Shown: positions 1-17,921 of the stretch, in pieces | Layout of the letters: the number at the start of each line of letters is the position of its first letter | Position numbering within the stretch: position 1 is the stretch's first letter | IMG/VR virus record: IMGVR_UViG_3300024999_000353 | Span: 1 to 25,882 of that record | Strand: one strand, 5' to 3' | Origin: a virus | DNA length: 25,882 bases | Program-made: the position numbers and the translations under genes | Notes under the pieces: generated by a model | What the model was told of the DNA's origin: nothing | What the model saw: the letters and a program-made list of their open reading frames with translations, nothing else | Databases searched by the model: none

Positions 1-42
1 TTCTTTAGTTGGTTTTAATCTAATTTTAATTGATTTTATTAT
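1..42 (-). CDS. tnpB: TnpB (IS605 OrfB-like) N-terminus, cut by window edge
   Basis: Only the first 14 codons are inside the window. They read (M)IKSIKIRLKPTKE, which is the characteristic beginning of TnpB/OrfB proteins, the RNA-guided endonucleases of IS200/IS605 elements (established family knowledge). A strong SD (GGAGG at 55-51) precedes it. The codon at normal spacing that starts the conserved peptide is ATA at 42-40. The only standard start in frame is GTG at 51-49, which overlaps the SD itself and is a poor alternative. The rest of the protein, including the RuvC residues, lies outside the window, so intactness cannot be judged. Confidence 0.7.
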   Translation of the reverse strand, partial: MIKSIKIRLKPTKE

Positions 43-51
43 ATTTATCAC

Positions 52-129
52 CTCCTTTTTATAATATTTATGTATTAATTATATAATATAAATATAATTT
101 ATAACTTATTATAACTTATTGATAACTGC
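52..129. other. AT-rich spacer before tnpB
   Basis: No gene is visible. It holds a direct repeat of AATAAGTTAT (two adjacent copies on the minus strand) and stretches of alternating A/T. It may contain the left end of the TnpB element and its promoter, because the upstream nuclease remnant stops abruptly at 130. No confident boundary can be drawn without the rest of the element. Confidence 0.3.
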
Positions 130-404
130 TTAAACATCTATTCCCATAACTTTGAATTTATCTACATTATTTTCTCTTAGATTTAGATAACTACCTTTTA
201 TTCCCACTACATCAATAGTTTTTTTGATGTTGCTTTAGAATTAAACCATTCGTAATCTTTTAGATATTGTGAGTATTTAGGGAATTGTACTTCTGTTGCA
301 ATGCAATTGTAACCTTTTGAATACAGTATGTATTTTGCGATTTGTTTGAGTTCATAATGAATTTTTGATTCATTTTTGTTGTAGTTTTCATTGAGTAGGA
401 TTAT
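130..404 (-). pseudogene. PD-(D/E)XK-like nuclease remnant, frameshifted and 3'-truncated (copy A)
   Basis: Read with one -1 shift this encodes about 91 residues. It begins with ILLNENYNKNESKIHYELKQ, continues through GYNCIATEVQF and TIDVVGIK, and ends GIDV-stop. The helix, then ATEV, then IDVVG order resembles the first half of MmcB-like PD-(D/E)XK nucleases, where the next element would be the catalytic E-x-K strand. Here the frame stops at that point, so the catalytic half is missing. The frame breaks in a run of seven A (minus strand of 224-230), arranged as A AAA AAA, a classical -1 slip site. The SD is GGAG at 415-412 and the first in-frame codon at normal spacing is ATA (404-402). The family assignment is an inference from motif order. 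Confidence 0.5.
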
Positions 405-406
405 TA
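365..406. repeat. 42-bp imperfect direct repeat, copy A
   Basis: It matches 1963-2004 with about six mismatches and no gaps. Both copies cover the same coding start (ATA ATC CTA CT...) of the small nuclease gene and the tail of the preceding frame (…NPT). The two copies flank the IscB unit. Confidence 0.8.
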
Positions 407-432
407 ATCATCTCCTTTATTTTTTATATAAC

Positions 433-1713
433 TTATATTTTTGATATTTTATTTTTTTCATATGAATAACCATCAAATCGTTGTATAATTTTAAAATATT
501 TATAACTAATTCCTTGTACAATTATTTTTCCTTCTTTATTTTTAATATCAAAATAACCACGTTTTCTACAAGCAATTTCTCCATACCACACTCCTTTGTA
601 TTTTCCTTTTAGAATAATTGCTTTTACCATATCACCTGTTTGGAATCCATAATAATATTTTTGTCTTGATAAATATCCTCTAGGAAAACCATATTTATTT
701 AAACGTGTTCTACAATGACTTCCTCTACCTTTAGCTTTTATGTATAAAATATTATTAGTTTTATAATATAGTTTATCAGGTGTACTTTCACCAACACAGC
801 AAGCATCAAAATGATGATCTTTTGGTAATCCCAATTTAATTCTATTCATTTTTGTTCTTGCACCAGTACCACATTCCACTTCTAATCCAGTATTATAAAG
901 AACATTATAAACTTTCCATCTTGTAGTATTAATAACTGCACAATCTTTTAAAGTTTGTTTAACTTGTTTTTGAATCTCTGGATAACCAAATTCTTCTGCT
1001 GTCAATTTATCTTTTTTATCATTGCATTCTCCACATGCTAAACAAAGATTATCTATTCTATTTGTACCACCTTTTGATTTAGGTATTATATGTTCAATTT
1101 CTAATGGAATATTTTCTTTTCCACAATAACTGCATCTTCTATTAAATTTTTCCAATAAATATTCTCTTAATTCATATCCTTGCAATGTACCTTGTTGATA
1201 TTCTATTCCTGAAATATTAGGATTTCTCATTAATTGAGTATCAAATTTTACATTTTCATAAGATATATTAGTTAATGGTATTAATTTTTGTAATCTATCA
1301 ATCCATGTTTTTATATTATCAACTCTACTTTGTAATGATGGTGGTATCCAACCCTTTTCTTTTTTACGATTTAAAAATCTTGGTTTACGATAACGTAATT
1401 TTCTATTTCTACGTTTGCGTCTATACATACTTCTAGTATTTAATTTGTCTTTTATATTAATACGATGTAAAATCTGTGCCATCCAAATTACTTTTTGATT
1501 ATTTTTTAAAATTGCTAATCCTGTATATCTACTACCATAATCTATTTTTAATCTGTATGTATTAATATTTTCTTCTTTAATTTCTTTATTAAGAATAATA
1601 GTAAATGGATATTTTTTTAATATTTTTGCTTTCTTTTGTTTAAGTAATTTTCTTGCTTTTGCTGGGTGACATGGTGATAAAGGTCTTTTATTTGTATCTA
1701 AAACAAATATCAA
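433..1713 (-). CDS. iscB: IscB RNA-guided nickase/nuclease (RuvC + HNH)
   Basis: This is a complete 426-residue IscB, the compact ancestor-type relative of Cas9 that cuts DNA guided by an omega RNA. Visible domains in order: an N-terminal PLMP-like segment (RPLSPCHPAKARKLL, residues 10-24, with PLSP in place of PLMP); RuvC-I with Asp58 (KIDYGSRYTGLAIL); an Arg/Lys-rich bridge helix (about 94-118); RuvC-II with Glu153 (ISYENV); an HNH domain with zinc cysteines 194/197/227/230 and the EHIIPKSKGG motif (His208); and RuvC-III with His300 and Asp303 (HHFDACCVG). A basic C-terminal region (about 345-426) would be the TAM-interacting part. All catalytic residues are present. The start is TTG (1713) behind AAAGGAG. 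Spacing upstream fits an omega RNA, and tnpB lies downstream on the same strand. No transposase (tnpA) is in view. Confidence 0.93.
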   Translation of the reverse strand: MIFVLDTNKRPLSPCHPAKARKLLKQKKAKILKKYPFTIILNKEIKEENINTYRLKIDYGSRYTGLAILKNNQKVIWMAQILHRINIKDKLNTRSMYRRKRRNRKLRYRKPRFLNRKKEKGWIPPSLQSRVDNIKTWIDRLQKLIPLTNISYENVKFDTQLMRNPNISGIEYQQGTLQGYELREYLLEKFNRRCSYCGKENIPLEIEHIIPKSKGGTNRIDNLCLACGECNDKKDKLTAEEFGYPEIQKQVKQTLKDCAVINTTRWKVYNVLYNTGLEVECGTGARTKMNRIKLGLPKDHHFDACCVGESTPDKLYYKTNNILYIKAKGRGSHCRTRLNKYGFPRGYLSRQKYYYGFQTGDMVKAIILKGKYKGVWYGEIACRKRGYFDIKNKEGKIIVQGISYKYFKIIQRFDGYSYEKNKISKI

Positions 1714-1962
1714 AGATTTTACTCCTTTCCTCGTTAATTAATTAACGGTAACATCTTTCTCGACAATGTTATATCTGCTTTTTACACTTAATACACTGAC
1801 TTAACCCATTACATCTGTTTAATATTAAGCGACAGTTGCTACAAACTGAAAGAGCATCTATAGGTGTCATGACAAATATAACGTAGTTCTCTAAGAACTT
1901 AGTCTGGTTAACATGAATATAAAACTCACAACATAGGTTGTTGGGTAGTTAACAATGCTCTC
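1714..1962 (-). ncRNA. Putative omega RNA of IscB
   Basis: The 249 bases just upstream of iscB encode no protein and are richer in G+C than their surroundings. On the minus strand they hold a 6-bp hairpin AGTTCT-TAG-AGAACT (1885-1899), a TAACAT/ATGTTA stem, a CAGTT/AACTG stem, an ACAAC/GTTGT stem near the 5' end, and a perfect 16-bp palindrome (1732-1747) immediately before the iscB SD. IscB families carry their omega RNA exactly here, with a 5' guide copied from flanking DNA. The guide would therefore end near 1963, where homology to copy A of the flanking repeat ends. Boundaries are approximate and no covariance model was run. Confidence 0.7.
1732..1747. repeat. Perfect 16-bp palindrome before iscB
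   Basis: CGTTAATTAATTAACG is self-complementary and lies directly 5' of the iscB SD. It could form the last stem of the omega RNA or limit ribosome access to iscB. Confidence 0.6.
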
Positions 1963-2004
1963 TTGATTCATTTTTATTATAGTTTTTGTTAAGTAGGATT
2001 ATAT
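1963..2004. repeat. 42-bp imperfect direct repeat, copy B (start of interrupted nuclease gene)
   Basis: On the minus strand this copy encodes ILLNKNYNKNES in the same frame as copy A (365-406), behind an SD (GAAGG at 2015-2011) and an ATA codon at 2002-2000. The frame then runs into the omega RNA and stops after four codons. It is therefore the 5' stub of the small nuclease gene interrupted by the IscB unit. Confidence 0.75.
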
Positions 2005-2201
2005 ATTTCACCTTCTTCTTTTATCAATTCTAATTCTTCAACAATTTCTGCCAATGTATCACACCATGCGACTTGATATTCCTCTCCATCTTCATCTGTT
2101 TTAAAAGCAAACCAACTTTTATAACTATCTGCCATATTAAAATCACCACGTTCAAGTCTAACATTAAATTTCTTTTCTATAACTTTTTTAGTTAATTGCA
2201 T
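1989..2201 (-). CDS. Small hypothetical phage protein (70 aa)
   Basis: 70 residues, acidic C-terminal half with a helical segment (CDTLAEIVEELELIKEEGE). An ATG follows AAGAAAGGAAAATAC. The stop overlaps the start of nuclease stub copy B. The same …NPT ending is duplicated before copy A, so the duplicated segment included the end of this gene. No family recognised. Confidence 0.7.
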   Translation of the reverse strand: MQLTKKVIEKKFNVRLERGDFNMADSYKSWFAFKTDEDGEEYQVAWCDTLAEIVEELELIKEEGEIYNPT

Positions 2202-2236
2202 ATGTATTTTCCTTTCTTATATATATTACTATTTAG

Positions 2237-2452
2237 TTACATACCATATTTACTACCAGTATCATATCTTTTAATTTCTCTTAAATTTTTCTTTTCTTTA
2301 TTACATTTATCACAAAACCATTGTCTACTTAATGTAATTAATCCTAATACTCTATTTTCATTCCATTTTGTACTTATTATTGTACCGCCACATTCACATA
2401 ATTCATCTATGCATTCATAACCATTTTTATAATATGTTTTTATGTTAATCAC
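2237..2452 (-). CDS. Small zinc-ribbon protein (up to 71 aa)
   Basis: Two cysteine pairs (CECGG near residue 19 and CDKC near residue 47) suggest one zinc ribbon; a basic tail follows. The GTG at 2452 overlaps the preceding stop (GTGA) but also lies inside the SD GAGG (2455-2452). The codon at normal spacing is ATA at 2443-2441, giving a 68-residue protein. Which of the two is used is undecided. It belongs to a run of small Cys-rich genes. Confidence 0.65.
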   Translation of the reverse strand: MINIKTYYKNGYECIDELCECGGTIISTKWNENRVLGLITLSRQWFCDKCNKEKKNLREIKRYDTGSKYGM

Positions 2453-2769
2453 CTCACTTTAAATTCATGTAATTTATTAAATGTAAAATCACAGTCAGGG
2501 CATCTCCAAATAGTGATAAATCCTTCTTTAGTGATATGCCCGTAATTAGTATCAAACGCATTTTCATGTTTACAATCTGCTATAATTGCATTATTTATTT
2601 GTTTTCTAATATCTTGCATTTGTTTATCAATTTCTTCCTTTTCTTTATTTAATTCTTTAATTTTCTCTTCTCCATGTATTTTTGCACATTTACCACATAG
2701 TACTTTCATACTTACATAATATTTTGAATTAGTTGGAGAAAAACATTCAAAACAAAATTGTGTTAACAT
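2449..2769 (-). CDS. Small double zinc-ribbon protein with coiled coil (106 aa)
   Basis: An N-terminal CFEC…CGKC zinc ribbon is followed by a charged helical segment (about residues 32-62, likely coiled coil), then a second Cys/His cluster (C-H near 66 and CPDC near 90). The ATG at 2769 has a GAGGT SD. The stop TGA overlaps the GTG of the next frame by four bases, which suggests coupled translation. Function unknown. Confidence 0.7.
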   Translation of the reverse strand: MLTQFCFECFSPTNSKYYVSMKVLCGKCAKIHGEEKIKELNKEKEEIDKQMQDIRKQINNAIIADCKHENAFDTNYGHITKEGFITIWRCPDCDFTFNKLHEFKVR

Positions 2770-2785
2770 ATTAATTACCTCATAT

Positions 2786-2983
2786 TTATTTATACTTTTC
2801 TAAACTTTCTTTATGTATTGGATTTTCTTTATGAAGAGTTTCTTTTTTACAATTAATACACCAAATATGTTTATTATGTCCTGCTTTATGCAATTTACCT
2901 AATAATCTTATTATCACTTGTTTATTACCACATTGTGTACATATTAATTCAGTATCAGTAAAATAAGTAGTTCTTTTTGATAT
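2786..2983 (-). CDS. Small zinc-ribbon protein, probable ATA start
   Basis: The protein carries CTQC and WCINC pairs about 28 residues apart, a typical zinc ribbon. SD GAGG at 2995-2992 is followed by exactly 8 nt and then ATA (2983-2981) in frame. The standard alternatives are TTG (3001), upstream of the SD, or GTG (2992), overlapping it. From the ATA the protein has 65 residues. Function unknown. Confidence 0.6.
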   Translation of the reverse strand: MSKRTTYFTDTELICTQCGNKQVIIRLLGKLHKAGHNKHIWCINCKKETLHKENPIHKESLEKYK

Positions 2984-3026
2984 AATTTTCACCTCTTTCA
3001 AGTTATTATAAAAACATTAATCTATT

Positions 3027-3269
3027 TCAACCAAAAACATACATACTTACTGTACCTATCATTATTCTTCCACAATGACTACAAACCCAACATTTTTTTC
3101 TATATGGATTACCTTTTTTAGATATAACTGTTGTCCACTTGTATTCTCCATCACTTCTTGGATATTTATATTCTCCTTGTCTAGCAGGACAATTTTCATG
3201 ATAACAATAATAAGTTACTAGAAATGGGTTATAATTTGCTTCTGGATGTGTTTTAAATTCTATGGTCAT
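3027..3269 (-). CDS. Small zinc-finger protein (80 aa)
   Basis: Starts ATG behind AAGGAG. Contains C-x4-C (CYHENC) near residue 22 and CWVCSHCG near residue 60, consistent with a zinc finger. The middle is aromatic and charged. No family recognised. Confidence 0.7.
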   Translation of the reverse strand: MTIEFKTHPEANYNPFLVTYYCYHENCPARQGEYKYPRSDGEYKWTTVISKKGNPYRKKCWVCSHCGRIMIGTVSMYVFG

Positions 3270-3283
3270 AATATCTCCTTAAA

Positions 3284-3541
3284 TTATTCTGACGCTATGT
3301 CCCAACATTTTTCACATTGTTTTAATTGTTCTTTAGAATCTATTCCCACATTTTCTTTCTCACATTCACCAATAAAATCATCTAATCCAAATGCACTAGG
3401 ACAATGACTTATTAAATAATTTCTATCTTTATCATTTCTTCTTAATGATTCTCTAATATCTATACATGTTTGCAAATGGTCTATATCACCAGTTTTAATA
3501 TTGTCACAATACTCTAAGATTATTTCTTTCCCAGTTTTCAT
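3284..3541 (-). CDS. Conserved small phage protein with CPS-GL…C-x2-CW motif (85 aa)
   Basis: The C-terminal half holds the pattern CPSAFGLDDF…C…C-x2-CW, which I recognise as recurring in small Firmicutes phage and prophage proteins; its function is not known. The four cysteines could bind zinc. ATG start behind AAGGAG. Confidence 0.7.
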   Translation of the reverse strand: MKTGKEIILEYCDNIKTGDIDHLQTCIDIRESLRRNDKDRNYLISHCPSAFGLDDFIGECEKENVGIDSKEQLKQCEKCWDIASE

Positions 3542-3577
3542 GTTATATTGTTCTCCTTCATATTAATATAATTTTTA

Positions 3578-3904
3578 TTAAATAATTATATTTCTTAAAT
3601 ATTCCATTTCTTTCTTAAAGTCTATTTTGTCATTTTTATTTGTTTTAATAATTCTAATAGTATAATTTTCATTTTTATTAAACCAATCCCATTTAACTAA
3701 TCTAACAACAATATCAAATTCATCAAATTCTTTTAATTTTCCTATCATTTTATATTTTGTATTGTTAATATTTATTCCATAAAATAAATTAGGTTCATTA
3801 GTTATATCTGTAGAAATACTTATAAATTTAAACTGATTTTCAAATAAGTTTTTATCTATTTGTAATTCCATAAATTTTTCTAATTTAATTGCTTTTATTT
3901 TCAT
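3578..3904 (-). CDS. Hypothetical phage protein (108 aa)
   Basis: The start chosen is the ATG at 3904, which has GAGGT 5 nt ahead. The longer frame, from 3949, would overlap the upstream small gene and has no SD. The product is mostly beta-strand-like with Lys/Asn-rich loops and no cysteines. No family recognised. Confidence 0.65.
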   Translation of the reverse strand: MKIKAIKLEKFMELQIDKNLFENQFKFISISTDITNEPNLFYGININNTKYKMIGKLKEFDEFDIVVRLVKWDWFNKNENYTIRIIKTNKNDKIDFKKEMEYLRNIII

Positions 3905-3932
3905 ATTAACCTCATTAAATTTTTTATTTATT

Positions 3933-4067
3933 TTACGTTTCATCATCACAATCGTACACAGGATGATACTCTATATTTAAACAATATATGCATATATTAC
4001 ATATATTTTTCTTTTTACAATTAAAACATAAGCAATCTTCACATTCTAAAGGGATATTTTTTATCAT
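3933..4067 (-). CDS. Tiny cysteine-rich protein (44 aa)
   Basis: The frame from ATG 4067 to TAA 3933 encodes 44 residues with eight cysteines, including C-x2-C-x-C-x2-C and a second C-x2-C-x2-C cluster. That density is far above chance and implies metal binding, probably zinc. An SD (GAAAGGAAGG) lies about 16 nt upstream, longer than ideal. It sits neatly between the stop of its left neighbour's start region and the next gene. Confidence 0.6.
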   Translation of the reverse strand: MIKNIPLECEDCLCFNCKKKNICNICIYCLNIEYHPVYDCDDET

Positions 4068-4094
4068 ATAATATATTTTTCCTTCCTTTCTAAT

Positions 4095-4292
4095 TTATAA
4101 AAACTTAATAATATCTCTTAATGTAAAATTTCTTTCTGCACATTTTTCTATATCATATGCGTGAAGTAACCACTGTTCTTCAGGATGAAATTCTGTACTG
4201 CCAAGCCAAATTTTATAAGGTATAACTTTTCTATTATTTGTTTCATCTTTATATTTGTATTGTAAGACTGGTGAAATTACTGTATCCATCAT
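4095..4292 (-). CDS. Conserved small phage protein (65 aa)
   Basis: Motif HPEEQWLLHAYDIEKCAERN is a conserved block that I associate with small Firmicutes phage proteins of unknown function. ATG behind AAAGGAGG. Confidence 0.7.
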   Translation of the reverse strand: MMDTVISPVLQYKYKDETNNRKVIPYKIWLGSTEFHPEEQWLLHAYDIEKCAERNFTLRDIIKFL

Positions 4293-4311
4293 ATTAATAT
4301 TCCTCCTTTAT

Positions 4312-4542
4312 TTATAATATTTCTAAATTAATCTTTAAAATAACTTTTTCTTCCCATTCATGTTCACATTCACTACAATAAAAATGAATGTTAATTGGAG
4401 TGTTGATTTCTGGATAATAAAAACAATTATTCCATTTTCTTTCATGATTACAATTAGGACATATAATAAACATTTCCAATTCGTGTAAATAAAATCTTTT
4501 AACTTCTAATATTCCACTTGGTTGATTAATTATTTTTAACAT
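4312..4542 (-). CDS. Small zinc-ribbon protein (76 aa)
   Basis: CPNC at about 28-31 and CSEC at about 56-59 form a standard zinc ribbon, with aromatic residues between. ATG behind AAAAGGAG. It may bind nucleic acid or a host protein; nothing more specific can be said. Confidence 0.7.
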   Translation of the reverse strand: MLKIINQPSGILEVKRFYLHELEMFIICPNCNHERKWNNCFYYPEINTPINIHFYCSECEHEWEEKVILKINLEIL

Positions 4543-4570
4543 GAATTTACTCCTTTTAATCTATATTAAT

Positions 4571-4828
4571 TTAATTTTCTATATAATCCAATTCCAATAT
4601 ATATCCTTTAGATTTTACTTGTGCAACAATACCTACTAATTTAACATGGTCACCATTAGGTTTAATTCCATCTCTATTACAATTAGGTGAAGCAAAATAT
4701 GATTTATCAACTAATTTTGTACTAGATTCTTTATATAAATAATAACATTTACTTCCATGAATCCATTGTACTATATCACCAATTTTTAATTCTACATTTG
4801 GATATGTATTTTGTTTTACTATTAGCAT
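4571..4828 (-). CDS. Hypothetical protein, SH3-like barrel (85 aa)
   Basis: Short beta-rich protein with LKIGDIVQWIHGSK and VKLVGIVAQV segments, suggestive of a small SH3-like barrel. ATG behind AGGAG. No family recognised. Confidence 0.6.
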   Translation of the reverse strand: MLIVKQNTYPNVELKIGDIVQWIHGSKCYYLYKESSTKLVDKSYFASPNCNRDGIKPNGDHVKLVGIVAQVKSKGYILELDYIEN

Positions 4829-4852
4829 GTGATTTCTACTCCTATTACTTTA

Positions 4853-5155
4853 TTAATTATTCTCATGTTTAATATTCTTAATAAATTCACCTTTCTCATA
4901 TACTTCGATACCATTTTTTGTCCATAAACTAAAATCCATTTCCATTGCTTTCATGTATTCTAATTGCCCTTTTTGTAATATTGCTTTTCCATATCTATAA
5001 GGAGTAAAATATAAAATGTTTTTATCTTTTACAATTATAGTTTTTAAATATGTTTTCTGCTAAGAATATAGTTTTATATTATAATAGTCTTCAACAAAAG
5101 CAACAGGATTATTTTGATATTTTTCTTTAAAGTTTAGTTTTTCTTGATCTGTCAT
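4853..5155 (-). pseudogene. Small terminase-N-terminus-like protein interrupted by in-frame TAG
   Basis: From ATG 5155 (SD GAGGTG) the frame reads NNPVAFVEDYYNIKLYS, then TAG at 5062-5060, and continues in the same frame QKTYLK…LYFTPYRYGKAILQKGQLEYMK…MDFSLWTKNGIEVYEKG to TAA at 4853, 100 codons in all. The first part resembles the N-terminal adaptor of large terminase subunits (…F.E…GI.L..WQK). At that position a Trp/aromatic is usual, so TGG to TAG is the simplest explanation. Both sides still look like good coding sequence. Readthrough or suppression is the alternative to a dead gene. The whole family is only about 100 residues, so this is not a full terminase. Confidence 0.55.
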
Positions 5156-5189
5156 AAGACACCTCACTCATAATGAATCAAACTTTTTG

Positions 5190-5321
5190 TCAAGATATTG
5201 TTTTATATTGTGGACATTGAAATTCTTTAGGACATTTTAATCCTAAATCACAATTACATTTTTCATCACTGGTTAAACAATTAACTTGTTTTTTTGTGTA
5301 GTGTATACATATAATTTTCAT
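5190..5321 (-). CDS. Tiny cysteine-rich protein (43 aa)
   Basis: ATG 5321 behind ATAAAGGAG; TGA at 5192-5190. Six cysteines in 43 residues (C5, C15, C22, C24, C30, C36) point to a small metal-binding knuckle. Function unknown. Confidence 0.6.
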   Translation of the reverse strand: MKIICIHYTKKQVNCLTSDEKCNCDLGLKCPKEFQCPQYKTIS

Positions 5322-5353
5322 TAATTTTATCTCCTTTATCATAATGTTTCAAA

Positions 5354-5548
5354 TCAATATTCGCTTTCTTCATATAACCAATCTAAAAACCATTCTAATT
5401 TTTTATTTATAATACCATTAACTTCACACAATTCTTCACCATTATTATATTGAGCAATCATTTCTCCATTTTTAACAAGTATTATTGTTTCATCATTTTG
5501 TAGAAATTGTTCTTTTTCTTTTAGAATTTCATTTAGTCTTTCTCTCAT
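5354..5548 (-). CDS. Small acidic hypothetical protein (64 aa)
   Basis: N-terminal helix (RERLNEILKEKEQFL), a short strand pair, and an acidic Trp-containing C-terminal helix. ATG behind AAAGGGAG. No family recognised. Confidence 0.6.
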   Translation of the reverse strand: MRERLNEILKEKEQFLQNDETIILVKNGEMIAQYNNGEELCEVNGIINKKLEWFLDWLYEESEY

Positions 5549-5581
5549 AATTATCTCCCTTTCAATTTTATTGTTTTTAAA

Positions 5582-5773
5582 TTATCCTAATTCATTATCT
5601 AAACATATAACATTTTTCATGTTTATATCATTTATACTAAATATTTCACCATTAAATGCTAAATATTTATATCCTACTCTTTCTGTCCATTCTCTACATT
5701 GATTATAATTCATAGGCCACATTTTTTGACTGTTGAACACTTCTTTCCAAGTTAATTTTAATTTATTATTCAT
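5582..5773 (-). CDS. Hypothetical phage protein (63 aa)
   Basis: The start chosen is the ATG at 5773, preceded by AAAGGAG; the longer frame from 5803 lacks an SD and overlaps the upstream gene. Contains LTWKEVFNSQKMWPM and a central aromatic stretch. No family recognised. Confidence 0.6.
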   Translation of the reverse strand: MNNKLKLTWKEVFNSQKMWPMNYNQCREWTERVGYKYLAFNGEIFSINDINMKNVICLDNELG

Positions 5774-5799
5774 ATTATTATATTCTCCTTTATTACAAA

Positions 5800-6105
5800 T
5801 CAATATTCTTCTTCGCTAAAATCAATAAATTCTTCTCCATCTTCGTATCCTTCAAGCAATAGATCAAAAACATTATCAAATGCTTTGGTTATATGAGTAT
5901 CACCTGTTTCTTGATTACATTCTTCTAAAATATGCTTCGCTATAAATTCAGCAAACATTTGACTTTTGCCTCTTTTAACTTTAGATTCATTATGATTATT
6001 AGGATAAAATTTAAATGCGTTTATTAAATTTTTAATAGGTATTTCAATTGTTAATTTTTTATTTGTAAGTTTAGTGGTAATACCTAAATTTTCAAATTTT
6101 TTCAT
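5800..6105 (-). CDS. Conserved hypothetical phage protein (101 aa)
   Basis: Pattern IEIPIKNLINAF…VKRGKSQMFAEFIAKHI…ETGDTHI…FD.VF..LLEG recurs in Firmicutes phages without known function. Acidic C-terminal tail. ATG behind GAAGGAG. Confidence 0.65.
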   Translation of the reverse strand: MKKFENLGITTKLTNKKLTIEIPIKNLINAFKFYPNNHNESKVKRGKSQMFAEFIAKHILEECNQETGDTHITKAFDNVFDLLLEGYEDGEEFIDFSEEEY

Positions 6106-6126
6106 ATGAATATTTCTCCTTCACTA

Positions 6127-6483
6127 TTAAAATACTTCAATACTTTCTAATTTAAATTTAATTTTACTATCATCAAATAGTATACACCAATTATTATATT
6201 TGTCTTTCCATAAATCCATTTTACTATATTCTTTAAATAATTTAATATCTGCATATACATTATTATCTTCAATAACGATTTTACTATTTTCAGGTATTAT
6301 ACCTATCACTTTACAATTTTTATAGTTATCTATATTGTTATAATCTTTATATTCAGATTTTTCATTCCATACTATAGGTGCATTATAAAATGATTCTAAT
6401 GAATTTTCAATCATTTCTCTAGTTAATTCCCAATTATTCTCTGTCATTCCAATTGTCATTATTAATTGTTTTTCTAATAGCAT
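6127..6483 (-). CDS. Conserved hypothetical phage protein (118 aa)
   Basis: Contains YNAPIVWNEKSEYKDY…VIGII…VYADIKLF. This is weakly reminiscent of the N-terminal fold of phage head-maturation proteases or DUF2213-type proteins, but at 118 residues it would be only a fragment of one, so I leave it unassigned. ATG behind AAAGGAG; the stop of the upstream gene is 1 nt away. Confidence 0.6.
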   Translation of the reverse strand: MLLEKQLIMTIGMTENNWELTREMIENSLESFYNAPIVWNEKSEYKDYNNIDNYKNCKVIGIIPENSKIVIEDNNVYADIKLFKEYSKMDLWKDKYNNWCILFDDSKIKFKLESIEVF

Positions 6484-6484
6484 A

Positions 6485-6664
6485 TTAAACTCCTTTCTTT
6501 ATATTATATTTCATGTTTTTTAATAATGGACATTCAATTAATTCTTCACGTTTATTAAAATATGTATCAACTATTTCTGATATTTTATTATTACATAATT
6601 TACATCTATACTCAACCCAATATCCTACCAAATTTCCGATTGAGTGTTCACATTCAAAACACAT
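6485..6664 (-). CDS. Tiny zinc-ribbon protein (59 aa)
   Basis: ATG 6664 behind AAAGGAG, TAA at 6487-6485. CFEC at residues 2-5 and CKLC at 21-24 form a zinc ribbon. The last codons supply the SD for the next gene, so the two are probably translated together. Confidence 0.65.
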   Translation of the reverse strand: MCFECEHSIGNLVGYWVEYRCKLCNNKISEIVDTYFNKREELIECPLLKNMKYNIKKGV

Positions 6665-6683
6665 ATTTATTCTCCTTTATAAA

Positions 6684-7010
6684 TTAGTTTTCGATACATT
6701 TATTTATAATATCTTTTATATAATCTTCAATATTAAATTCTTTTTCATACCAATAAATAGAGAAACTATATGTACTTAAATTAGTTTCAAATCCTTTTAG
6801 TTTAAAATATTTATCTAATTCATCTTTTACTTCTTGGACATCTATATTTTTATTAAATAGGAAATATGCACATCTACTTAAATTATTAACTTCTTCATCA
6901 ATAACATATTTAATTTTTTGTAATAATTCTTTATTTTCATGCTCAAATTTAATCATAAAATATATTTCATTTTCCTTTGTTTTATTTTTTATATCATTGA
7001 TATTAAACAT
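6684..7010 (-). CDS. Hypothetical protein (108 aa)
   Basis: The start is the ATG at 7010, which overlaps the previous stop as TGATG; a TTG one codon earlier is also possible. The product is charged with an amphipathic helix pair and no recognised motif. Confidence 0.6.
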   Translation of the reverse strand: MFNINDIKNKTKENEIYFMIKFEHENKELLQKIKYVIDEEVNNLSRCAYFLFNKNIDVQEVKDELDKYFKLKGFETNLSTYSFSIYWYEKEFNIEDYIKDIINKCIEN

Positions 7011-7405
7011 CAATATCTTTCTCCTTTATCATTCTGTTTTTGTTTCTTCTTAACTTTTTTAATCTCTATTGCAATTTTACTATCATTTTCATTTATTTCT
7101 CTCTTATTTTCTTTATTTTTATTATTCTTATCACACCATTTCATTACACCACAACATCCTACATAACCTTTTATTGTTTTATCTTTACATGTACTTCTTG
7201 GAAATTCCATATACATATCATATTCTTCTTTTGCTGTCCAATTCATCTTAACAATTTCAGTAATTAAATTAGGGCATTTGCTTTGTGATGTTGTGGATTC
7301 TTTACTATTTGAATCATCTTCATTTTCTATGTATTGATTTTCTTTTTCTATTTCCTCATTATCTTTATGCTTATCATCTATTAAATTATTTTTAGTTTTT
7401 CTTAT
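7010..7405 (-). CDS. Hypothetical Lys/Asn/Glu-rich protein, probable ATA start
   Basis: A low-complexity charged N-terminal third, a central block with conserved-looking residues (NLITEIVKMNW…STCKDKTIKGYVGCCGVMKWC) and a very basic C-terminus. A perfect SD GGAGG (7418-7414) is followed by 8 nt and ATA (7405-7403). The only standard start in frame is TTG at 7441, which precedes the SD and lies inside the previous gene. From ATA the protein has 131 residues. Function unknown. Confidence 0.6.
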   Translation of the reverse strand: MRKTKNNLIDDKHKDNEEIEKENQYIENEDDSNSKESTTSQSKCPNLITEIVKMNWTAKEEYDMYMEFPRSTCKDKTIKGYVGCCGVMKWCDKNNKNKENKREINENDSKIAIEIKKVKKKQKQNDKGERY

Positions 7406-7428
7406 GATTGGTTCCTCCTTTCTATTTA

Positions 7429-7854
7429 TTAATCTGCACAATTATCACATTTACCTGTATCATAATAATCAGCAAATAATTCTCCACATACTAAACATGT
7501 ATCTAAACAATCATCACAAAAATATTCATCAAAACTTTTATCTTTATTATGTGGTTTTAATTTTAAAGGTTTTAATATTTTGCCACACCCTCTGCAAAAT
7601 ATTTCTAATGTTTCAATTTCTATTTTTACTTTAATCTTACTATCAACATTACCAAAAATATCATCAGGATATAATCTAACTTTATTTCCTATTGGTTTAT
7701 AATTCCACATATCTGATGTATCTTTTTCTACATAATCATGAATTTCTGGTTCTTTACCTTTTATTTTTTTGAATGTTTCAATATCAACCTCCCAACAGAA
7801 ACATTCAAAATCTCCAGAATTAATTGCTGTGAATTCTATTGTTTTATTTTTCAT
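7429..7854 (-). CDS. Conserved phage protein with C-terminal zinc fingers (141 aa)
   Basis: The N-terminal domain (WEVDIETFKKIKG…VRLYPDDIFG…VKIEIE) resembles a small domain seen in Firmicutes phage proteins of unknown role. The C-terminal 55 residues hold CRGC, CDDC, CLVC and CDNC pairs, enough for two zinc sites. ATG behind AAAGGAG, overlapping the upstream gene's end region. Confidence 0.7.
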   Translation of the reverse strand: MKNKTIEFTAINSGDFECFCWEVDIETFKKIKGKEPEIHDYVEKDTSDMWNYKPIGNKVRLYPDDIFGNVDSKIKVKIEIETLEIFCRGCGKILKPLKLKPHNKDKSFDEYFCDDCLDTCLVCGELFADYYDTGKCDNCAD

Positions 7855-7857
7855 ATT

Positions 7858-7971
7858 TTAATCTCCTTTATAATATTTTAAATATTCTTCTATCTTTGTC
7901 TTTCTATTTTTCTCTTTAAATTCTATAAATTTAATAATTAATTTTTGCCACCAATACAAATTGCTATTCAT
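7858..7971 (-). CDS. Tiny basic protein (37 aa)
   Basis: ATG 7971 behind GGGAG; TAA at 7860-7858. Sequence NLYWWQKLIIKFIEFKEKNRK suggests a short amphipathic helix with a basic face. Its final codons overlap the next gene's SD. A real but uncharacterised micro-ORF is likely because spacing to both neighbours fits. Confidence 0.5.
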   Translation of the reverse strand: MNSNLYWWQKLIIKFIEFKEKNRKTKIEEYLKYYKGD

Positions 7972-7972
7972 A

Positions 7973-8500
7973 TTATTCTCCCATCCTTCCTACATGTTTA
8001 CCATATTCCCATAATTTAGTTGGTGTATATCTATTTTGTAAATCTAATACCCAATTCTTATATTTTTCACTATAATTATCTATATCTTTTGCATTAATCC
8101 AAATACTATGCCATTTTGTGAATAATTTCATTGGAGCATTTACTAATCTTAGTGTTTGAATTAGATTATTGTTACTTTCTATACTTATTACATGTACTAG
8201 ATTACTTTTGATAATATTCATAATTCTATCGTCTTTATATAATGTAGGATCAAAATCTAATTCAAATATGAGACAATCACCAAATTTAAATAGTGTGTAA
8301 AGATAATTAGATTCCTCAAGTATACGTACTTCTATTTTATTAAATCTTAATGATTGTTTTTCTGATTTCGTCATATTGTTGATATAAATATTTAAGAATA
8401 ATTCACCTTTTTTATTACATTCAAAAATACAGCATGTTTGATTTTTTGTGTTTCTACCTGTGAATAAAGTGTATGGTTTGCCAACTTCTAGTTTTTGCAT
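7973..8500 (-). CDS. Hypothetical protein, first gene of the small-gene array (175 aa)
   Basis: The start chosen is ATG 8500, preceded by AGAAGG; the longer frame from 8545 would begin in the promoter-proximal leader. The product is a mixed alpha/beta protein with no recognised motif; a KWHSIWINAKDIDNY segment is notable for aromatics. It is the first gene after a consensus promoter (8742-8770), so probably the lead gene of the leftward transcript. Confidence 0.65.
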   Translation of the reverse strand: MQKLEVGKPYTLFTGRNTKNQTCCIFECNKKGELFLNIYINNMTKSEKQSLRFNKIEVRILEESNYLYTLFKFGDCLIFELDFDPTLYKDDRIMNIIKSNLVHVISIESNNNLIQTLRLVNAPMKLFTKWHSIWINAKDIDNYSEKYKNWVLDLQNRYTPTKLWEYGKHVGRMGE

Positions 8501-8595
8501 GTGATATACCTTCTTTCTGTGTGAGATTATGTATTTATTATACACTAATTTAAGTTTGAATAAAACATAGATTTTATCACGATTTTGAGAATAAC

Positions 8596-8670
8596 AAAGT
8601 GTTGATTTTGTTGGGTTTGTGAGGTGTGTAATTTTTGATATTTTTAATAATTTTGCAAAATCAACACTTT
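8596..8670. repeat. 15-bp perfect inverted repeat in leader
   Basis: AAAGTGTTGATTTTG at 8596-8610 is exactly complementary to 8656-8670, with 45 nt between. In the leftward RNA this could form a stem, and the loop contains ACACCUCAC, complementary to GAGGUG-type SDs. As DNA it could be two operator half-sites. Confidence 0.65.
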
Positions 8671-11086: not shown

Positions 11087-11102
11087 AACTTTACCTCCTT
11101 TA

Positions 11103-12011
11103 TTATTTTTGATTTTTATATCTCCATATGAAACCATGATGACTTTTTCTTTTTCCTTTGCAACATGCATATATATGTTGAGAATTGCAATTTAATACTC
11201 TTTCAGCTTCTTTGCCACTAACCCATTCTTTTATAAAATTATTTTGTTTGTCAAATTGCAAAATTGGAATTTTTAAATCATTTCGAGTATGTATATTAAT
11301 TTTTAATATTTCTTTAATGCTTATTCCACAATAATCTTCTATTTCTTTATCGTGATCTATACTTCTAAATTCTTTGTAGTATTTATCTTCTGCTTGAACC
11401 CTTACGATTATTGCATCCTTTAAGTTTTTATATGTTCCCAATTCTATTTTATTATCATTATAATTTATTACTGCTCTATAATTTCCTTGTCTTTTATCTT
11501 TAGATACCCCTTTAAAACCAGTTTCATTCTCTTGGTATTTTTTATTCCAACTATTTTCTTGTGAAGAACATATTCTAAGATTGACTTTTCTATTATCTTT
11601 TGTTTTTTGAAACATATGATCAATTTCTTTATCAACGATATCAAAATATTTTCCCATTATAAAACGATGCAGTAAAATATTTTCTCCATTTATATATCCC
11701 CAAACATATCCATTTTCATTTATATACCATATATACTTTTTTACTTCATTTAATTCTTCTAGATCGATAAAGAATACATCTTCTTTTTTGTTATTATATG
11801 TTTTTACCTTAACATAATTTTCTTCAAATTCATATGTATTTTCTAAACATCTACCACAACTTTGCACATCTCCATTTTTCAATAAATCTGCTCTAACTTT
11901 TGTTATATATTTATGAACACAATTACATTGACAAATCCAATAAGTTTTATTATTATTTCTTTCATAACTTAATGCTGTTAATTTACCAAATTTTTGATTT
12001 GTTAAATCTAT
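11103..12011 (-). CDS. HNH homing endonuclease with AP2 and NUMOD1-type domains, probable ATA start
   Basis: Selfish site-specific endonuclease inserted between dnaE and the recD2-like gene. Order of domains: an N-terminal (I)DLTNQKFGKLTAL segment with a zinc ribbon (CQCNC and SCGRC); an HNH nuclease (HRFIMG…EIDHMFQKTKDNRKVNLRICS…N); an AP2-like DNA-binding domain (GFKGVSKDKRQGNYRAVINY…LGTYKNLKDA); and a C-terminal NUMOD1-like helix-turn-helix (ILQFDKQNNFIKEW…IYACCKGKRK…GFIWRYK). Relatives begin M-x-D-L-T-x-Q-x-F-G. Here the codon before DLT is ATA (12011-12009), five bases after GGAG. TTG at 12023 is in frame but overlaps the SD. The gene follows the dnaE stop directly. Confidence 0.85.
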   Translation of the reverse strand: MDLTNQKFGKLTALSYERNNNKTYWICQCNCVHKYITKVRADLLKNGDVQSCGRCLENTYEFEENYVKVKTYNNKKEDVFFIDLEELNEVKKYIWYINENGYVWGYINGENILLHRFIMGKYFDIVDKEIDHMFQKTKDNRKVNLRICSSQENSWNKKYQENETGFKGVSKDKRQGNYRAVINYNDNKIELGTYKNLKDAIIVRVQAEDKYYKEFRSIDHDKEIEDYCGISIKEILKINIHTRNDLKIPILQFDKQNNFIKEWVSGKEAERVLNCNSQHIYACCKGKRKSHHGFIWRYKNQK

Positions 12012-12023
12012 AAAAACTCCCAA

Positions 12024-15000
12024 TTAAATATCTTCCACCCTTCTGTCACTTTGTAAAATTAAAGTTCCATCTTCTTTGACTTCTATTATTCTTTGAACAC
12101 TATGTTGATAAATAGAATTTTTATACCTTTTTGGTTTAAATATATCTCCTCTTCTAAATCCTGTTATTAATAATAATTCTGATCTTTTGAACCATCCGTT
12201 TTCTAAAATTATTTTTTTTATTTTTCCTTTATCATCTATACCATTATCTTTAGAAATTGTTTTATCATAAAATGAAAATTGTCCTGAATAAAACTTTAAA
12301 GTTACAACACCTTCAGGAGTCAATATGGTAACAGAATGTTTATTTTTATCTCTATCTAAAACAGTTCCTATAATTCTATCTAATTGAAACTTAGGATATT
12401 GTAAACCTTTATATTTCGTAAAACCTACAACAATAGGTTCTTCAGGTAAAGAATAAAAATCAACTATCCCATATTTCTCTTTATTAACATTTGCTAATTC
12501 ATGTCCAGATTCTTTACTATAAAAATTCATACTCTCCATTTCCCATGAACTGATACTACCTTGCATATTTTCATTTTTAATATTTTGAAAAACAATATCT
12601 GTATATGTTTTTACACATTCCTCAGTGGTTATCCATTTATTTAATTGAATAATTTTATTTTTATAAATAGATTCAAATGAACCTTTACGTGATGTTCCTA
12701 ATGCTACAAGTAAATAACCTTCATCATCATATTTATAATCTTTATTTTCTTGCATATCATTTGCAAAATGTTCTAAGAAAAAATTATTTGCATATTCTAT
12801 GTTTTCTTCATTAAATTCATCATATAATTTATACCATATAATAGATTTTGTTTGCTTATCTTGAGTTTTCTTCATGCTTGTTAAATATTCTCTAAAATTA
12901 TAATATTTTAATTCTTCTTTTAATTTAGATGGTACTATTCCTAATTCAGCTATTTTACTAATATCTTTAGAATTTAATTTTGTTTTAGATGGATTTAATA
13001 ATCGTAAATAATTTTCTAATATTTTTTCTCTTGGTTTATCTTCTATTTTATCGAATGCCCCTGCTTTAATTAACATAATAGTTTGACTTTCTGTTACTAA
13101 AGACTTCATTTGTGTTTTCCTAGTTTTCAAAATCACTTCTCTTTTTACTAAGACTAATCTTTCATGAAAATCCTTTAAACTTATGTATGGTCTATTTTGC
13201 ATAATGGTTTGTGCTGTTTCATTATTGATCTTCATAATACCTTTAAATCCAAAAATAATTTCGTTATCTTCTTCATTAGGTAAAAATCCTTGTTCAGCTT
13301 TATTAACATATGGCAATGAGATATTAATATCTTTGGCTTGTAGTTTGCCAATAGCTTTTGCAATTTCTCCATAATTAGTTGTTCTTTCTTTTGCTTCTAT
13401 ATCAGAATTATCACATATTTCTCTATCAACTGCTCCTGATTCAACCATTAATACTGCTGTATTCCAATAAATAGGAGGATAATAATAAACTAGATTTAAT
13501 TGTTGAATGAGAATAATTGTATAAGCGACAGAATGCAATATTGAAAATGAATACCCAAGTTGTAATGCTATTTGTTCATTCCAAATATACTCTAATAAAA
13601 TTTTAGGAGCATTAGCTTTTTCTCCCCATTTAAAAAACAATGTTTTAGCATCATCAATTAACTTCTGTTGTTTTTTTGCCACTCCTTTTCTTAATTTGTT
13701 ACTTTCTATTACTCCAAATCCAGCAACGTCCTTATCCATAGTTAATAACATCATTTTTTCTTGACTTGAACATACTCCATAATCTTGTAACAAATGTTTT
13801 TCCATTATATTAATTTGTTTTTCGTTGAGTCCAAATTTTTTCATGTCTTTATACCATTCGGAAATATTATTTTTATATCTAACAAATTTCTCTAATGGTT
13901 GTTCTCCACTTTCTACCATTAATCTCATAACTGTATTGCCATTGGAAGCATCAATTAAATTTTGTGGTTGAATTAATTTAATTGCTTGTTCCCCAACGGA
14001 AGATTCAAATTGAAAACAAGAAAGCAATTCTCCTTTACATAAAATATTCCACATTTCTTTTGATTTAAAATCTATAACATCTGGATGTAGATATTTATTA
14101 TATGTTTTTCTCAAGCTTCCTTGCCATTCAATTTTTTTATTTTTTACTAGCATTTCCATAGTTAATTGAAGCATAGATTCTGTTTTGGTATTTAGAAAAT
14201 CATATTTTAAATTTGATACTTGCTCTGAATCGTGTAATTCATATGCAGATATTAATTCTCCACTTGGACTTCTCATTACTGAATTATGTTTTGTGATTGG
14301 TTCATTTAGAATAAGAATTCCACAAGCATGTGTTGATCTTTTATTAATTAATCCTTCAATACCTAATATAATATTTAATAAATTTTTATCTGTATATTCA
14401 TTGATAATGTTTTTAAATTCAGTTATTTGTTTTCTTCCATTGTCTGAATCTCCATAGAAGCAATCATGAATACTCCACACTTTTCCTCTTTCTATTGGTA
14501 CTAAAGAACTCAAATATAACGCTACATCATTGTTGATATGTAATCCTCTACAGCCAGTAAGAATTGCTGATTTAGAAGTTTCCGTTCCAAAGGTACACAC
14601 CCTTATTGCATCTCCACCTATGCTTTGATAATACTTTACTATTTTATCCATTACTACATCTTTTTTATGAGAACTGTAATCTATATCAATATCAAAAATA
14701 TCTGGTCTTTCTGCTGACATAAATCTCCAATGAGGCATTTCTACACCTTGCTCTAATGGATTTACTTGTGTAATACCTAATAAATAATTAATTATATATC
14801 CATTAGCTGAACCTCTTCCAGGGCCGACAAATGATTCAGCTTCTTCCCAGATAATATCTATATTTTTTTGCATGGTTACTAAATAAGCTCCCATAGGTTG
14901 ATGTTTTGCTTTGCTTGCTCCTATAATTTCTTTGCATTCAATATTAACTCTTTCTAAAACATCATCTAATTTTTCTTTTTTAATTTCTCTTTCTTCTATT

Positions 15001-16077
15001 CCTTTAAATATTTGAGTAATTAAATATTTATGCTGTATTTCCTTATCTTCATAAAGTTCTTTTATATATTGATATTTGTTTAATATTTTTTTGTCAACTG
15101 GATACCATTCTGATTTATTAGGTAATTTTGTTAATGGAATAATTGATTCTGCAAAAAATTCATATCCTACAATTTTATCAGCAATTTCTTTAGTGTTTAA
15201 TATTGCTTTTTCAATATCTTCACTTTCTAAATAATCTATATTTTTAAATATTTCATCTACAGTAAAGAAATAAGTTGTGCTATAAAACATATCTACTTCA
15301 CGATTACCATTTGAATCTTCTTCTGAAGTTAAAAATGCTTTATGCACTTCTCTATCCTTAGATGTTAAATAATGTGCATCAGTTGTCACTATCCATTTTA
15401 TTCCATATGCTTTAGCTATTTTTATTGCCATTTTGTTAAAATCTATTTGTTCATCTTGCAAAGAAGGTTGTAATTCAATATAAAAATCTTCTCCAAATAA
15501 ATCTAAACACCAATTTATAAAATAATCTATTTCATCTTTTATTTGTTCTTGTTTTTCTTCGTTTTCTTCTTGTAGTAAATTTAATATTAAATATGGTAAC
15601 ATTCCACCCAAGCAACTACTTGATGCAATTAAATGTCCTCTATTTTCATTTACAATATCTTCTATATCACTATAATAAGTGGGTACTCTTTCTATACCTT
15701 TATAATTAAACATTCGTTTCCATGCTCTAGTTGATAATTTTCTAATTTGTTCATGGCCAATATTATCTTTTGCTAAAATTAAAAAATGATAAAACTGCGT
15801 TTTCCCTTGCTCTTTCATTTCTTCATACATTATTTCTTCATTAACCAAATAAATTTCATTCCCTAATATTGGTTTAAAATCTTTATGTATTTTTTCTTTA
15901 GATTTTAATTCTTTAACTATATTCAAAAATTTTACATGTCCTGAAACAGTATCATGATCTGTTAAAGCTATAGCACTATTTCCTAATGAATTAACATGTA
16001 AAACCATATCTTTAATTTTATTAATTGAATCAAAGTAAACGGATATTACTATACTCTGAATGAACATGTAAATGCAC
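12024..16077 (-). CDS. dnaE: DNA polymerase III alpha subunit (DnaE type), needs +1 frameshift
   Basis: The phage replicative polymerase, about 1350 residues. GTG 16077 follows AAGGA and starts MHLHVHSEYSNIRLL, the PHP-domain signature. The frame then meets TGA (16032-16030) right after CTT. A +1 shift at CTT-T-GAT continues DSINKIKDMV…ALTDHDTVSGHVKF, restoring the RLLDSINK block typical of this subfamily. Later motifs: LGNEIYL, STRAW, VPTYYSD, ASSSCLGG and TTDAHYL (PHP, residues up to about 235); GPGRGSANGYIINYL (about 418); the catalytic PDIFDIDID (about 458-466); STHACGILI; YDFLNTKT with the third acidic residue; and an HhH/OB-type C-terminal region. Everything after the shift is intact over 1335 codons. 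The neighbours are recJ upstream and a homing endonuclease downstream. Confidence 0.92.
16030..16038 (-). promoter_or_regulatory. Putative programmed +1 frameshift site TTA CTT TGA
   Basis: The 0-frame codons are CGT TTA CTT TGA; one base must be skipped at CTT-T to reach GAT TCA. CTT TGA with Leu-Asp read across the site is identical to the bacterial prfB +1 recoding site. The internal SD-like sequence that stimulates prfB is not seen. An ordinary one-base insertion is the alternative. Confidence 0.5.
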
Positions 16078-16119
16078 AAAATCCTTATCTTGTAACAATA
16101 TCCAACCCTTCTTTCTAAT

Positions 16120-17910
16120 TTAAAATCTAAATTCCTTTGCATTTTCCACATTAAAATCTATTATATTTACTTGTGGAAAATCATTATTATTCCATTTATT
16201 AATTTCAAACTCACCAATAACATCCATTTTTATTTTATTAGTTTTTGATTTTGATAACCCTTTATGTGACTTCATAATCATTTTATTATATGTATCTTCA
16301 CCAGAAAATTTTTTAATAAATGAAATTTTATTATTACCTATATTTTTTTCAAACTTAATTAAATTTCTTTTTTCTCCCAATAATTGAATATCAGTTACTT
16401 GTAAAATTATCTGTGTAATAGCAAAAATAGGTTTTCTTAATGTATTTCCCCATATATTTTCCCATTGACCAATTTGAAGCACATGTTTTTCTTTTAATTT
16501 CCCTACAGGTATTTCATAATCAACTAAATAAACATCCTCTATATCTATATCTTTGAAAAATTCGTTAAGTTTGTTTTGTGTTTCTTGAATTTTACTTTCT
16601 TTAATTTGATGTCCTCCTGCGTTATTATGGCCACCCACCATAATAAACGTATCTAGCTCTTTTAATATATCCATAAAAGATTCTACTGGAAATAAATTAT
16701 AATTTCTAAAACTACCTCCATATATTATTTCATTGTTTTTCTCTTTCATTTTTTTTAAAATAATTATTGGTCGTTTATAAATGTTAGTTAATTTATTAGC
16801 TACTAAACCAGTAAATGATTTCTCTAAAATATCAGTAGCATCCACAATTATAACTTTATTATTATTTAATTTTTGTGTCTCAATTATTTCTATTAATTGT
16901 TCCATTGATTTAGTAACTAATTTATCTTGTCTTGATTTTATATTGTTGCTTTCTCTAACCATCGTTTTTTGTAGAGTATGTATTTCAACTGGAGGTTTAT
17001 CATCTGTTTTCTTTTTCCTTCTAGGTTGATATTCTCTTAAATCTTCTATTCCTAAAAAAGCATTAATCAAATCCATTTTTTCTTCTTGTGTACCAATTCT
17101 TGTGACAGCATTAATAAAAGGTGCTATTTTCCAACCAACGAATTCAAAATTTATTGATTCTTCTTCTTTTTTGTTTTTAATTAAAAATTCTTTAATAAAA
17201 TTATTATTTATTTTTTTTAATCCTTCAATAGCTAAATATCTAGTTTCATAATTTCTTAAATCCATTGAATCCCCAACGATACCAATTGCAACTAAATCTA
17301 AATCATTTTCTGCAAAATCTAATCCATATTTTTTGTCATATTCTTTAATAAACTTATAAACAACCCCTGCCCCACTTAAAGTAGGATTAGGATATTGTCC
17401 ATCTTGACAATTGATAACTATTGCATAGGGATTATCTTCTTCAATAGTATGATGATCTAAAATTAATATATCTACATCTCTTGTTTCTATTAATTCTTTA
17501 GACTGTTTAACATCTGATGTTCCAGCATCTGGAATTATTAATAAATCAAATTCATATTGTTCTAAATTTTTAACAATAATACCATGAATTTTATTATCAT
17601 TCATTGAATGTGTAATATCAATATTGTTATTTATATTTTTAATGTAATTATGAATTATTGTTGCTGAAGTAAGTCCATCTTGATCAACATCATCTATAAT
17701 ATGTATTTTACTATTATTTTCAATATGCCAATTAAGCATATTAAGACCACGTTCCATATTTTTAAATAATATTCCATCATGTAAAACTGATCCATTTATA
17801 TTTAATAATTCTTTTGGATTTTCAACACCTCTGTTTTTTAATAATATATCTAATAATTCATCTTCTGTAATTAAATCGTAACCTTTGTTCAACACTTTAT
17901 ATTTAATAAT
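16120..17910 (-). CDS. recJ: RecJ-like DHH single-strand exonuclease, probable ATT start
   Basis: A 5'-3' ssDNA exonuclease or nanoRNase-like DHH/DHHA1 phosphoesterase. Motifs (numbered from the GTG codon): DDVDQDGLTSA (68-78), IIPDAGTSD (about 119-127), LDHHTIEED (145-153), IGIVGDSMDLRN, and the DHHA1 motif GGHNNAGGH (about 445). The C-terminal OB-like extension is retained. The shortest standard start is GTG 17895, but it lies 20 nt from the only SD (GGAG, 17919-17916). Five bases after that SD is ATT ATT AAA TAT AAA, giving (M)IKYKVLNKGYDLITEDELL, which looks like the natural family N-terminus, so ATT (17910) is preferred. It ends 42 nt before the dnaE GTG start. Confidence 0.9.
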   Translation of the reverse strand: MIKYKVLNKGYDLITEDELLDILLKNRGVENPKELLNINGSVLHDGILFKNMERGLNMLNWHIENNSKIHIIDDVDQDGLTSATIIHNYIKNINNNIDITHSMNDNKIHGIIVKNLEQYEFDLLIIPDAGTSDVKQSKELIETRDVDILILDHHTIEEDNPYAIVINCQDGQYPNPTLSGAGVVYKFIKEYDKKYGLDFAENDLDLVAIGIVGDSMDLRNYETRYLAIEGLKKINNNFIKEFLIKNKKEEESINFEFVGWKIAPFINAVTRIGTQEEKMDLINAFLGIEDLREYQPRRKKKTDDKPPVEIHTLQKTMVRESNNIKSRQDKLVTKSMEQLIEIIETQKLNNNKVIIVDATDILEKSFTGLVANKLTNIYKRPIIILKKMKEKNNEIIYGGSFRNYNLFPVESFMDILKELDTFIMVGGHNNAGGHQIKESKIQETQNKLNEFFKDIDIEDVYLVDYEIPVGKLKEKHVLQIGQWENIWGNTLRKPIFAITQIILQVTDIQLLGEKRNLIKFEKNIGNNKISFIKKFSGEDTYNKMIMKSHKGLSKSKTNKIKMDVIGEFEINKWNNNDFPQVNIIDFNVENAKEFRF

Positions 17911-17921
17911 AACATCTCCTT

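Follow-up and report, generated by a model that had tools for sequence, protein, structure and literature searches.

Can a phage gene begin at AUA or AUU when a good Shine-Dalgarno (SD) sequence stands in front of it? The question is raised by IMG/VR virus record IMGVR_UViG_3300024999_000353, a linear fragment of 25,882 nucleotides (nt; positions 1-25,882) with 25% guanine plus cytosine (GC), which we analysed in whole and call the window. Its gene content is that of the early or replication region of a phage, mostly on the minus strand, and a first reading from the letters alone (the sequence-only reading) had listed genes in which an SD site is followed by ATA or ATT in place of a start codon; on re-reading, the letters at these sites are as described. 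To our knowledge, AUA, AUU and AUC (together AUH) are regarded as nearly forbidden bacterial starts, known from few regulated genes. We consider it likely, judging from sequence comparison, that AUH codons are true start codons in a phage clade to which the window belongs, where they would account for approximately 5% of the genes with an inferable start, these weak starts being rescued by extended SD sequences.

Start codons at homologous positions

The use of AUA and AUU as start codons is well supported by their position, frame and spacing and by their alignment with AUG or UUG in homologues, and the strongest evidence for it, as far as sequence can tell, is that AUH is located where the homologues begin. 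We found AUH in frame at the homologues' start position in the columns of recJ, the phrog_2475 gene, the window gene at 2443, a protein with the motif RKVKFLKDF, and primase. The window has no match among GenBank phages at the DNA level, and its RecJ and DnaB proteins show 30-36% identity to those of Firmicutes phages; relatives were sought among viral_contigs, with 26-27 contigs for each of recJ and dnaB, and the long relatives (30-135 kb, including the 106-kb contig G001) were read at full length. This phage clade has a GC content of 25-29%.

The recJ-like gene (16120..17907, minus strand; Pfam domains DHH, DHHA1 and RecJ_OB), encoding a single-stranded DNA exonuclease, apparently starts at the ATT at 17905..17907, which directly precedes the conserved KYKVLNKGY and lies 8 nt behind the SD AAAAGGAG (17916..17923, minus strand), with no in-frame ATG, GTG or TTG (NTG) upstream in the window. 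The sequence-only reading was right that the start is a non-canonical ATT, and named the codon at 17910; the correct one is the second ATT, 17907-17905 (GGAG-N8). In the start column of 27 homologous contigs we observe ATA in 13, ATC in six, ATT in two, TTG in two and ATG in four, the ATT of the window aligning with ATG in G006, L025, L073 and G007 and with TTG in L017 and L019. On the RecJ protein tree the start codon has undergone at least nine changes among five codons, four of them between AUH and NUG. GTG 17895, the one canonical codon close by, was rejected as the recJ start, its column not being conserved (GTG, GTA, GTT, GTC, GCA or ACT).

Similar interchange was observed in the other columns. 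The phrog_2475 gene begins with ATA in G001, G007 and L189, with TTG in L187, L188, G004 and G005, and with ATG in L190, in LIBA6276 (one residue off) and in the annotated Bacillus phage vB_BcoS-136, where the ATG is exactly aligned with ATA; among five loci checked, two have ATA and none has an in-frame NTG upstream. The 58-residue RKVKFLKDF protein starts with ATA in three cases, TTG in two and ATG in one. In the window, the gene for a small Cys-rich protein (2443-2237, minus strand) has ATA at 2441..2443 behind the extended SD GAGGTGAT (2448..2455, minus strand), whereas its 79%-identical homologue in the relative L170 carries ATG in precisely this place behind AAAAGGAGG, reading AAAAGGAGGTAAA-ATG-AAAACA, which confirms the ATA start. 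The primase start is GTG in the window (a primase-like gene with a CHC2 zinc finger, 19058-17922, minus strand), ATG in AR1086-1 and ES-S-0107-01, TTG in a Staphylococcus phage and apparently ATA in LIBA6276 (MF547662 79599-80660, locus L143), where ATA 80660 stands behind AGGAGGTGAT. Standard annotation misses such starts: GenBank record MF547662 places the start of the LIBA6276 primase at an ATG that lies 210 nt further downstream, which shortens the protein by 70 codons, although homology extends to the ATA. Finally, the first canonical codon of the guanylate kinase gene of G001 lies 183 nt inside the gene, beyond the P-loop, so that a functional enzyme demands a non-canonical start.

Frequency of probable AUH starts in the clade and beyond

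Since ATA is common at 25% GC, we chose a gene-aware test restricted to the reading frame. Genes were defined as stop-to-stop frames of at least 50 codons, those with an SD-supported ATG, GTG or TTG were excluded before AUH was scored, and in the remainder the in-frame codon 7-9 nt downstream of a strong SD (a match of at least 6 nt to AAAGGAGGTGATC, GGAG or GAGG included) was examined. This test superseded frame-blind counts of SD-to-codon offsets, which were too noisy at this composition. Start columns from clusters picked by ATG votes were dropped, as internal columns had been mis-chosen, and candidates of the ATACATATG type (IHM...) were discarded because an ATG follows at SD spacing 13-14.

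We found that AUH occupies 45 of 67 in-frame sites at SD spacing 7-9 in the clade, compared with 13 of 134 in the other frames at equal spacing (p = 6.5e-17) and with 32 of 268 in-frame codons 13-24 nt past the SD (p = 5.7e-19), both pooled p-values being too small because the relatives share genes and are not independent. In G001 alone the counts are 11/14 versus 7/56 (p = 3.8e-6). The spacing of ATA after the SD peaks at 8, like that of ATG. Across the clade, the inferred starts comprise 760 ATG, 79 TTG, 30 ATA, 14 GTG, 9 ATT and 6 ATC, so that AUH makes up 45 of 898, approximately 5%. The AUH excess is beyond chance; comparison of the AUH frequency with expectation had been named beforehand as a check that could refute the proposal, and run on the relatives it did not.

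Upon extending the count to other phages, we observe 0 AUH starts in outgroup contigs and, in the AT-rich control phages AR9, vB_BcoS-136 and Fnu1 together with part of CP220, 1 AUH among 647 inferred starts. LIBA6276 and phiCD27 had also been picked as controls and both proved to share the AUH trait, which among Clostridioides difficile phages reaches 6/151 starts in LIBA6276 and 5/145 in AR1086-1. The phage lineage and the C. difficile phages apparently carry AUH starts in approximately 3-6% of their genes. In a 400-kb sample of an Acetoanaerobium chromosome (L147-L166) there are four AUH candidates among 402 genes (~1%), in each of which an extended SD is followed by ATT or ATC and a canonical start is lacking; the trait is therefore not confined to phages, merely denser there, and AUH starts may, to judge from these sites, be under-annotated in clostridial chromosomes too.

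Why AUH codons may serve as starts

In the reading that we favour, an extended SD helix of the AAGGAGGTGA type, ending 7-9 nt ahead of the codon, would place and hold the 30S subunit, and the ordinary formylmethionyl-tRNA(CAU) would pair with the first two of the three AUH bases. A Clostridium-type ribosome would then initiate at AUH at a reduced yet useful rate. Point mutations, with the 25-29% GC composition as the driving force, would convert AUG to AUH and back, and AUH would be retained in genes whose strong SD makes up for it and for which less product is acceptable or advantageous. AT pressure from AUG to AUA, tolerated under a strong SD, would explain the interchange of start codons without a dedicated regulator. 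That translation begins at AUH, how much product results, which residue comes first and which host is infected are inferences. The phage clade probably infects Clostridia, as suggested by the SD type, the C. difficile phage relatives and the relatives of IscB; the search for a host through the latter indicated Clostridia and other anaerobes and pinpointed no host.

Several points weigh against this reading. The pooled p-values are overstated through the kinship of the relatives. The mean SD match is 7.8-8.3 nt for ATA and ATC versus 6.1 nt for ATG, a comparison skewed by the rule that admitted AUH genes only with an SD of at least 6 nt, although counts free of SD selection agree: after GAGGTGA-N5 the clade has 11 ATA, 7 ATT, 6 TTG and 5 ATG. 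Additionally, in around half of the AUH candidates an in-frame ATG or GTG lies inside or beside the SD, mostly at position -9, and could act as a low-level start.

This last point leads to an alternative in which the true starts are the in-frame GTG, ATG or TTG codons that overlap or precede the SD, AUH being a plain isoleucine codon. At spacing 8, GGAGGTG or GGAGATG gives an in-frame NTG at -9, some in-frame NTG lies upstream in 24 of the 49 AUH candidates, and GenBank annotates three LIBA6276 genes other than primase at this -9 codon, a GTG inside the SD. The remaining 25 candidates, however, have no in-frame ATG, GTG or TTG upstream, and the NTG at -9 is not itself preceded by an SD at a workable distance. 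Furthermore, the -9 ATG of recJ is lost or out of frame in the window, L012, G004, G005 and L027 while the AUH column persists, protein conservation starts after the AUH column, and it is exactly in this column that homologues carry ATG or TTG, so that we regard this alternative as quite unlikely. That the AUH codons are an artefact, produced by sequencing or assembly errors from ATG to ATA or by decaying genes, is highly improbable: the nuclease gene at 404 really is a frameshifted remnant, but the same columns read ATA, ATC or ATT across many separate metagenome datasets, AUH also occurs in the genomes of isolated C. difficile phages, and AUH genes retain long open frames.

The sequence-only reading had itself offered two explanations, a class of genes under start-codon control or a means of the phage or host for initiating at AUA and AUU. 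Attenuation through the start codon, keeping expression low or sensing IF3 levels or the growth state, is possible but doubtful as the general explanation. Bacterial AUH starts attenuate infC, pcnB, ccpN and cvfC1 (PMC13009471), and several AUH genes (recJ, primase, TnpB, homing endonucleases) encode proteins required at low levels. Nevertheless, the AUH genes lack functional coherence, since guanylate kinase, a carbamoyltransferase-like protein, an anti-repressor, an fn3-containing protein, a thioredoxin-like protein and small proteins without assigned function are also among them; AUH and AUG or UUG interchange rapidly between close relatives; and AUH genes are not enriched for tight spacing to the preceding stop codon (21/45 versus 406/853 for other genes). 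Because functions are mixed and the recJ start codon alone has changed so often, a single AUH regulon is rejected, and the proposed class is not borne out; selection for lower output may act on some AUH genes.

A dedicated device that relaxes start selection, such as a divergent host IF3, initiator tRNA or 16S modification or an unrecognised phage factor, would imply hosts, or infected cells, with relaxed third-base proofreading at initiation, in which AUN forms a near-normal class and AUA is an ordinary start commoner than GUG. The AUH share far exceeds that of the AT-rich control phages, and the inferred AUA starts (30) outnumber the GUG starts (14). In addition, AAGGAGGTGA-N5-ATA occurs at background in 391 Clostridia genomes (50 hits, none with more than two per genome) versus three times in 0.58 Mb of the phage clade, a pattern too strict for a strong test of hosts, with just 31 ATG hits in 31 genomes. 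On the phage side, we detected no IF3 (IF3_C), no TilS (PF01171) above cut-off and no unusual or initiator-like tRNA in the phage contigs searched, which are fragments and may be incomplete; ARAGORN found no tRNA in the close relatives, and only tRNA-Lys, tRNA-Trp and tRNA-Pro in the distant contig G002. AUH is also accompanied by stronger SDs, as expected of weak starts, and its presence in C. difficile phages and Acetoanaerobium indicates that no special host is needed. We therefore consider a dedicated device unlikely; of the means of initiation that had been proposed, the phage-encoded part finds no support, and host-side tolerance of AUH starts is the preferred reading.

AUH starts have precedents elsewhere. 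In Escherichia coli, infC and pcnB have AUU starts, and infC is autoregulated by IF3. The phage genes share with these two the near-cognate kind of start, one that limits expression; the E. coli genes are single regulatory cases, and no infC was found in the phage contigs searched. In Staphylococcus aureus, an extended SD precedes the starts of infC, ccpN and citZ (AUA) and of cvfC1 (AUU); those tested with reporters yield approximately 10% of the AUG level, and ccpN reaches up to 30% when the medium is rich (PMC13009471). The phages resemble this system in having AUH near an extended SD and an AT-rich Gram-positive type of ribosome, but whereas S. aureus offers four bacterial sites with measurements, the phage starts amount to approximately 5% of those inferred, interchange with AUG and UUG, and are known from sequence. 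An engineered AUU start works in Clostridium butyricum and C. sporogenes, sufficiently for protein secretion (PMC11040787); that is an artificial construct, in contrast to the natural gene set of the phages. In Borrelia burgdorferi, pncA (bbe22) has an AUU start and was hence misannotated (PMC13398362), its truncated database entry resembling that of the LIBA6276 primase (ATA), although that case is a single bacterial gene, established by structural and biochemical work. AUH starts are thus known singly, and what is new is their frequency and their interchange among orthologues, for which we found no report in the literature searched, itself of partial coverage. The dozens of natural matched AUG/AUH gene pairs could be used to test the trade-off between SD strength, IF3 and initiator tRNA, and the results suggest permitting AUH behind an extended SD when genes are called in AT-rich Gram-positive phages.

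Further sites and neighbouring genes in the window

At the window sites 2443, 2983, 7405 and recJ, a strong SD lies 8 nt ahead of ATA or ATT, and none of the four has another start at proper spacing. The gene for a small CxxC protein (2983-2786, minus strand) reads GAGG-N8-ATA, with the SD at 2992..2995 and the putative start at 2981..2983; the other canonical codons in reach, TTG at -18 and GTG at -9, lack a properly spaced SD. For a 131-residue acidic, low-complexity protein (7405-7010, minus strand), the ATA at 7403..7405 follows AAAGGAGG (7414..7421) in the arrangement AAAGGAGG-N8-ATA, the sole other nearby in-frame canonical codon being a TTG 36 nt upstream without an SD. A search retrieved no informative homologue of either gene, and the proposed ATA starts are favoured here by the good SD at spacing 8.

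The nuclease-like gene at 404-207 (minus strand; ATA at 402..404, SD GGAG at 412..415) is a frameshifted remnant with a one-base deletion relative to L170, and it continues into the tnpB element found at the edge of the contig. The intact L170 homologue is a 205-codon frame without ATG, GTG or TTG in its first 87 codons and with ATA behind GAGGTGA, which supports the ATA start even though the window copy is broken. For tnpB, cut by the contig edge, the arrangement GGAGG-N8-ATA is present (SD at 51..55, ATA at 40..42, minus strand); only 14 codons lie in the window, a DNA scan found no relatives, and the ATA is a probable start. A TnpB-like gene in G001 (L031:3045-4502; G001:23045) apparently starts at ATA as well (TGGAGGTGTATACTA-ATA). 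In the NUMOD-type HNH endonuclease gene, the ATA at 12009..12011 (minus strand) is a candidate start only, as homologues cover the C-terminus and miss the N-terminus, and an alternative TTG at 12023 has a weak SD.

The start proposed at 2002, for a second nuclease copy, was rejected: it lies within the final codons of gene 2201-1989, which starts with ATG, and is followed by a 17-codon stub beside an IscB/HEARO element. This element comprises an IscB RNA-guided nuclease gene at 433-1953 (NF040563, E = 4e-132, TTG start) and a HEARO/omega RNA at 1953-1748 (Rfam RF02033, 136.6 bits). On either side of it, near 2005-1960 and 407-365, lie the copies of an imperfect ~40-nt repeat that stems from the nuclease gene hosting IscB. 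The L170 nuclease gene has no adjacent IscB.

Among the neighbouring genes, a DnaB-type helicase is encoded at 20647-19040 (minus strand), and the window further carries DNA polymerase III alpha-like, RecD2-like helicase and NAD ligase-like genes. The recD2-like gene of G001 (L078:10001-13195) is ~900 nt longer than in other relatives, which suggests an intron, intein or inserted gene. The carbamoyltransferase homologue of G001 (L032:441-1409; G001:41409) is of the aspartate/ornithine type, with both OTCase domains over the cut-off.

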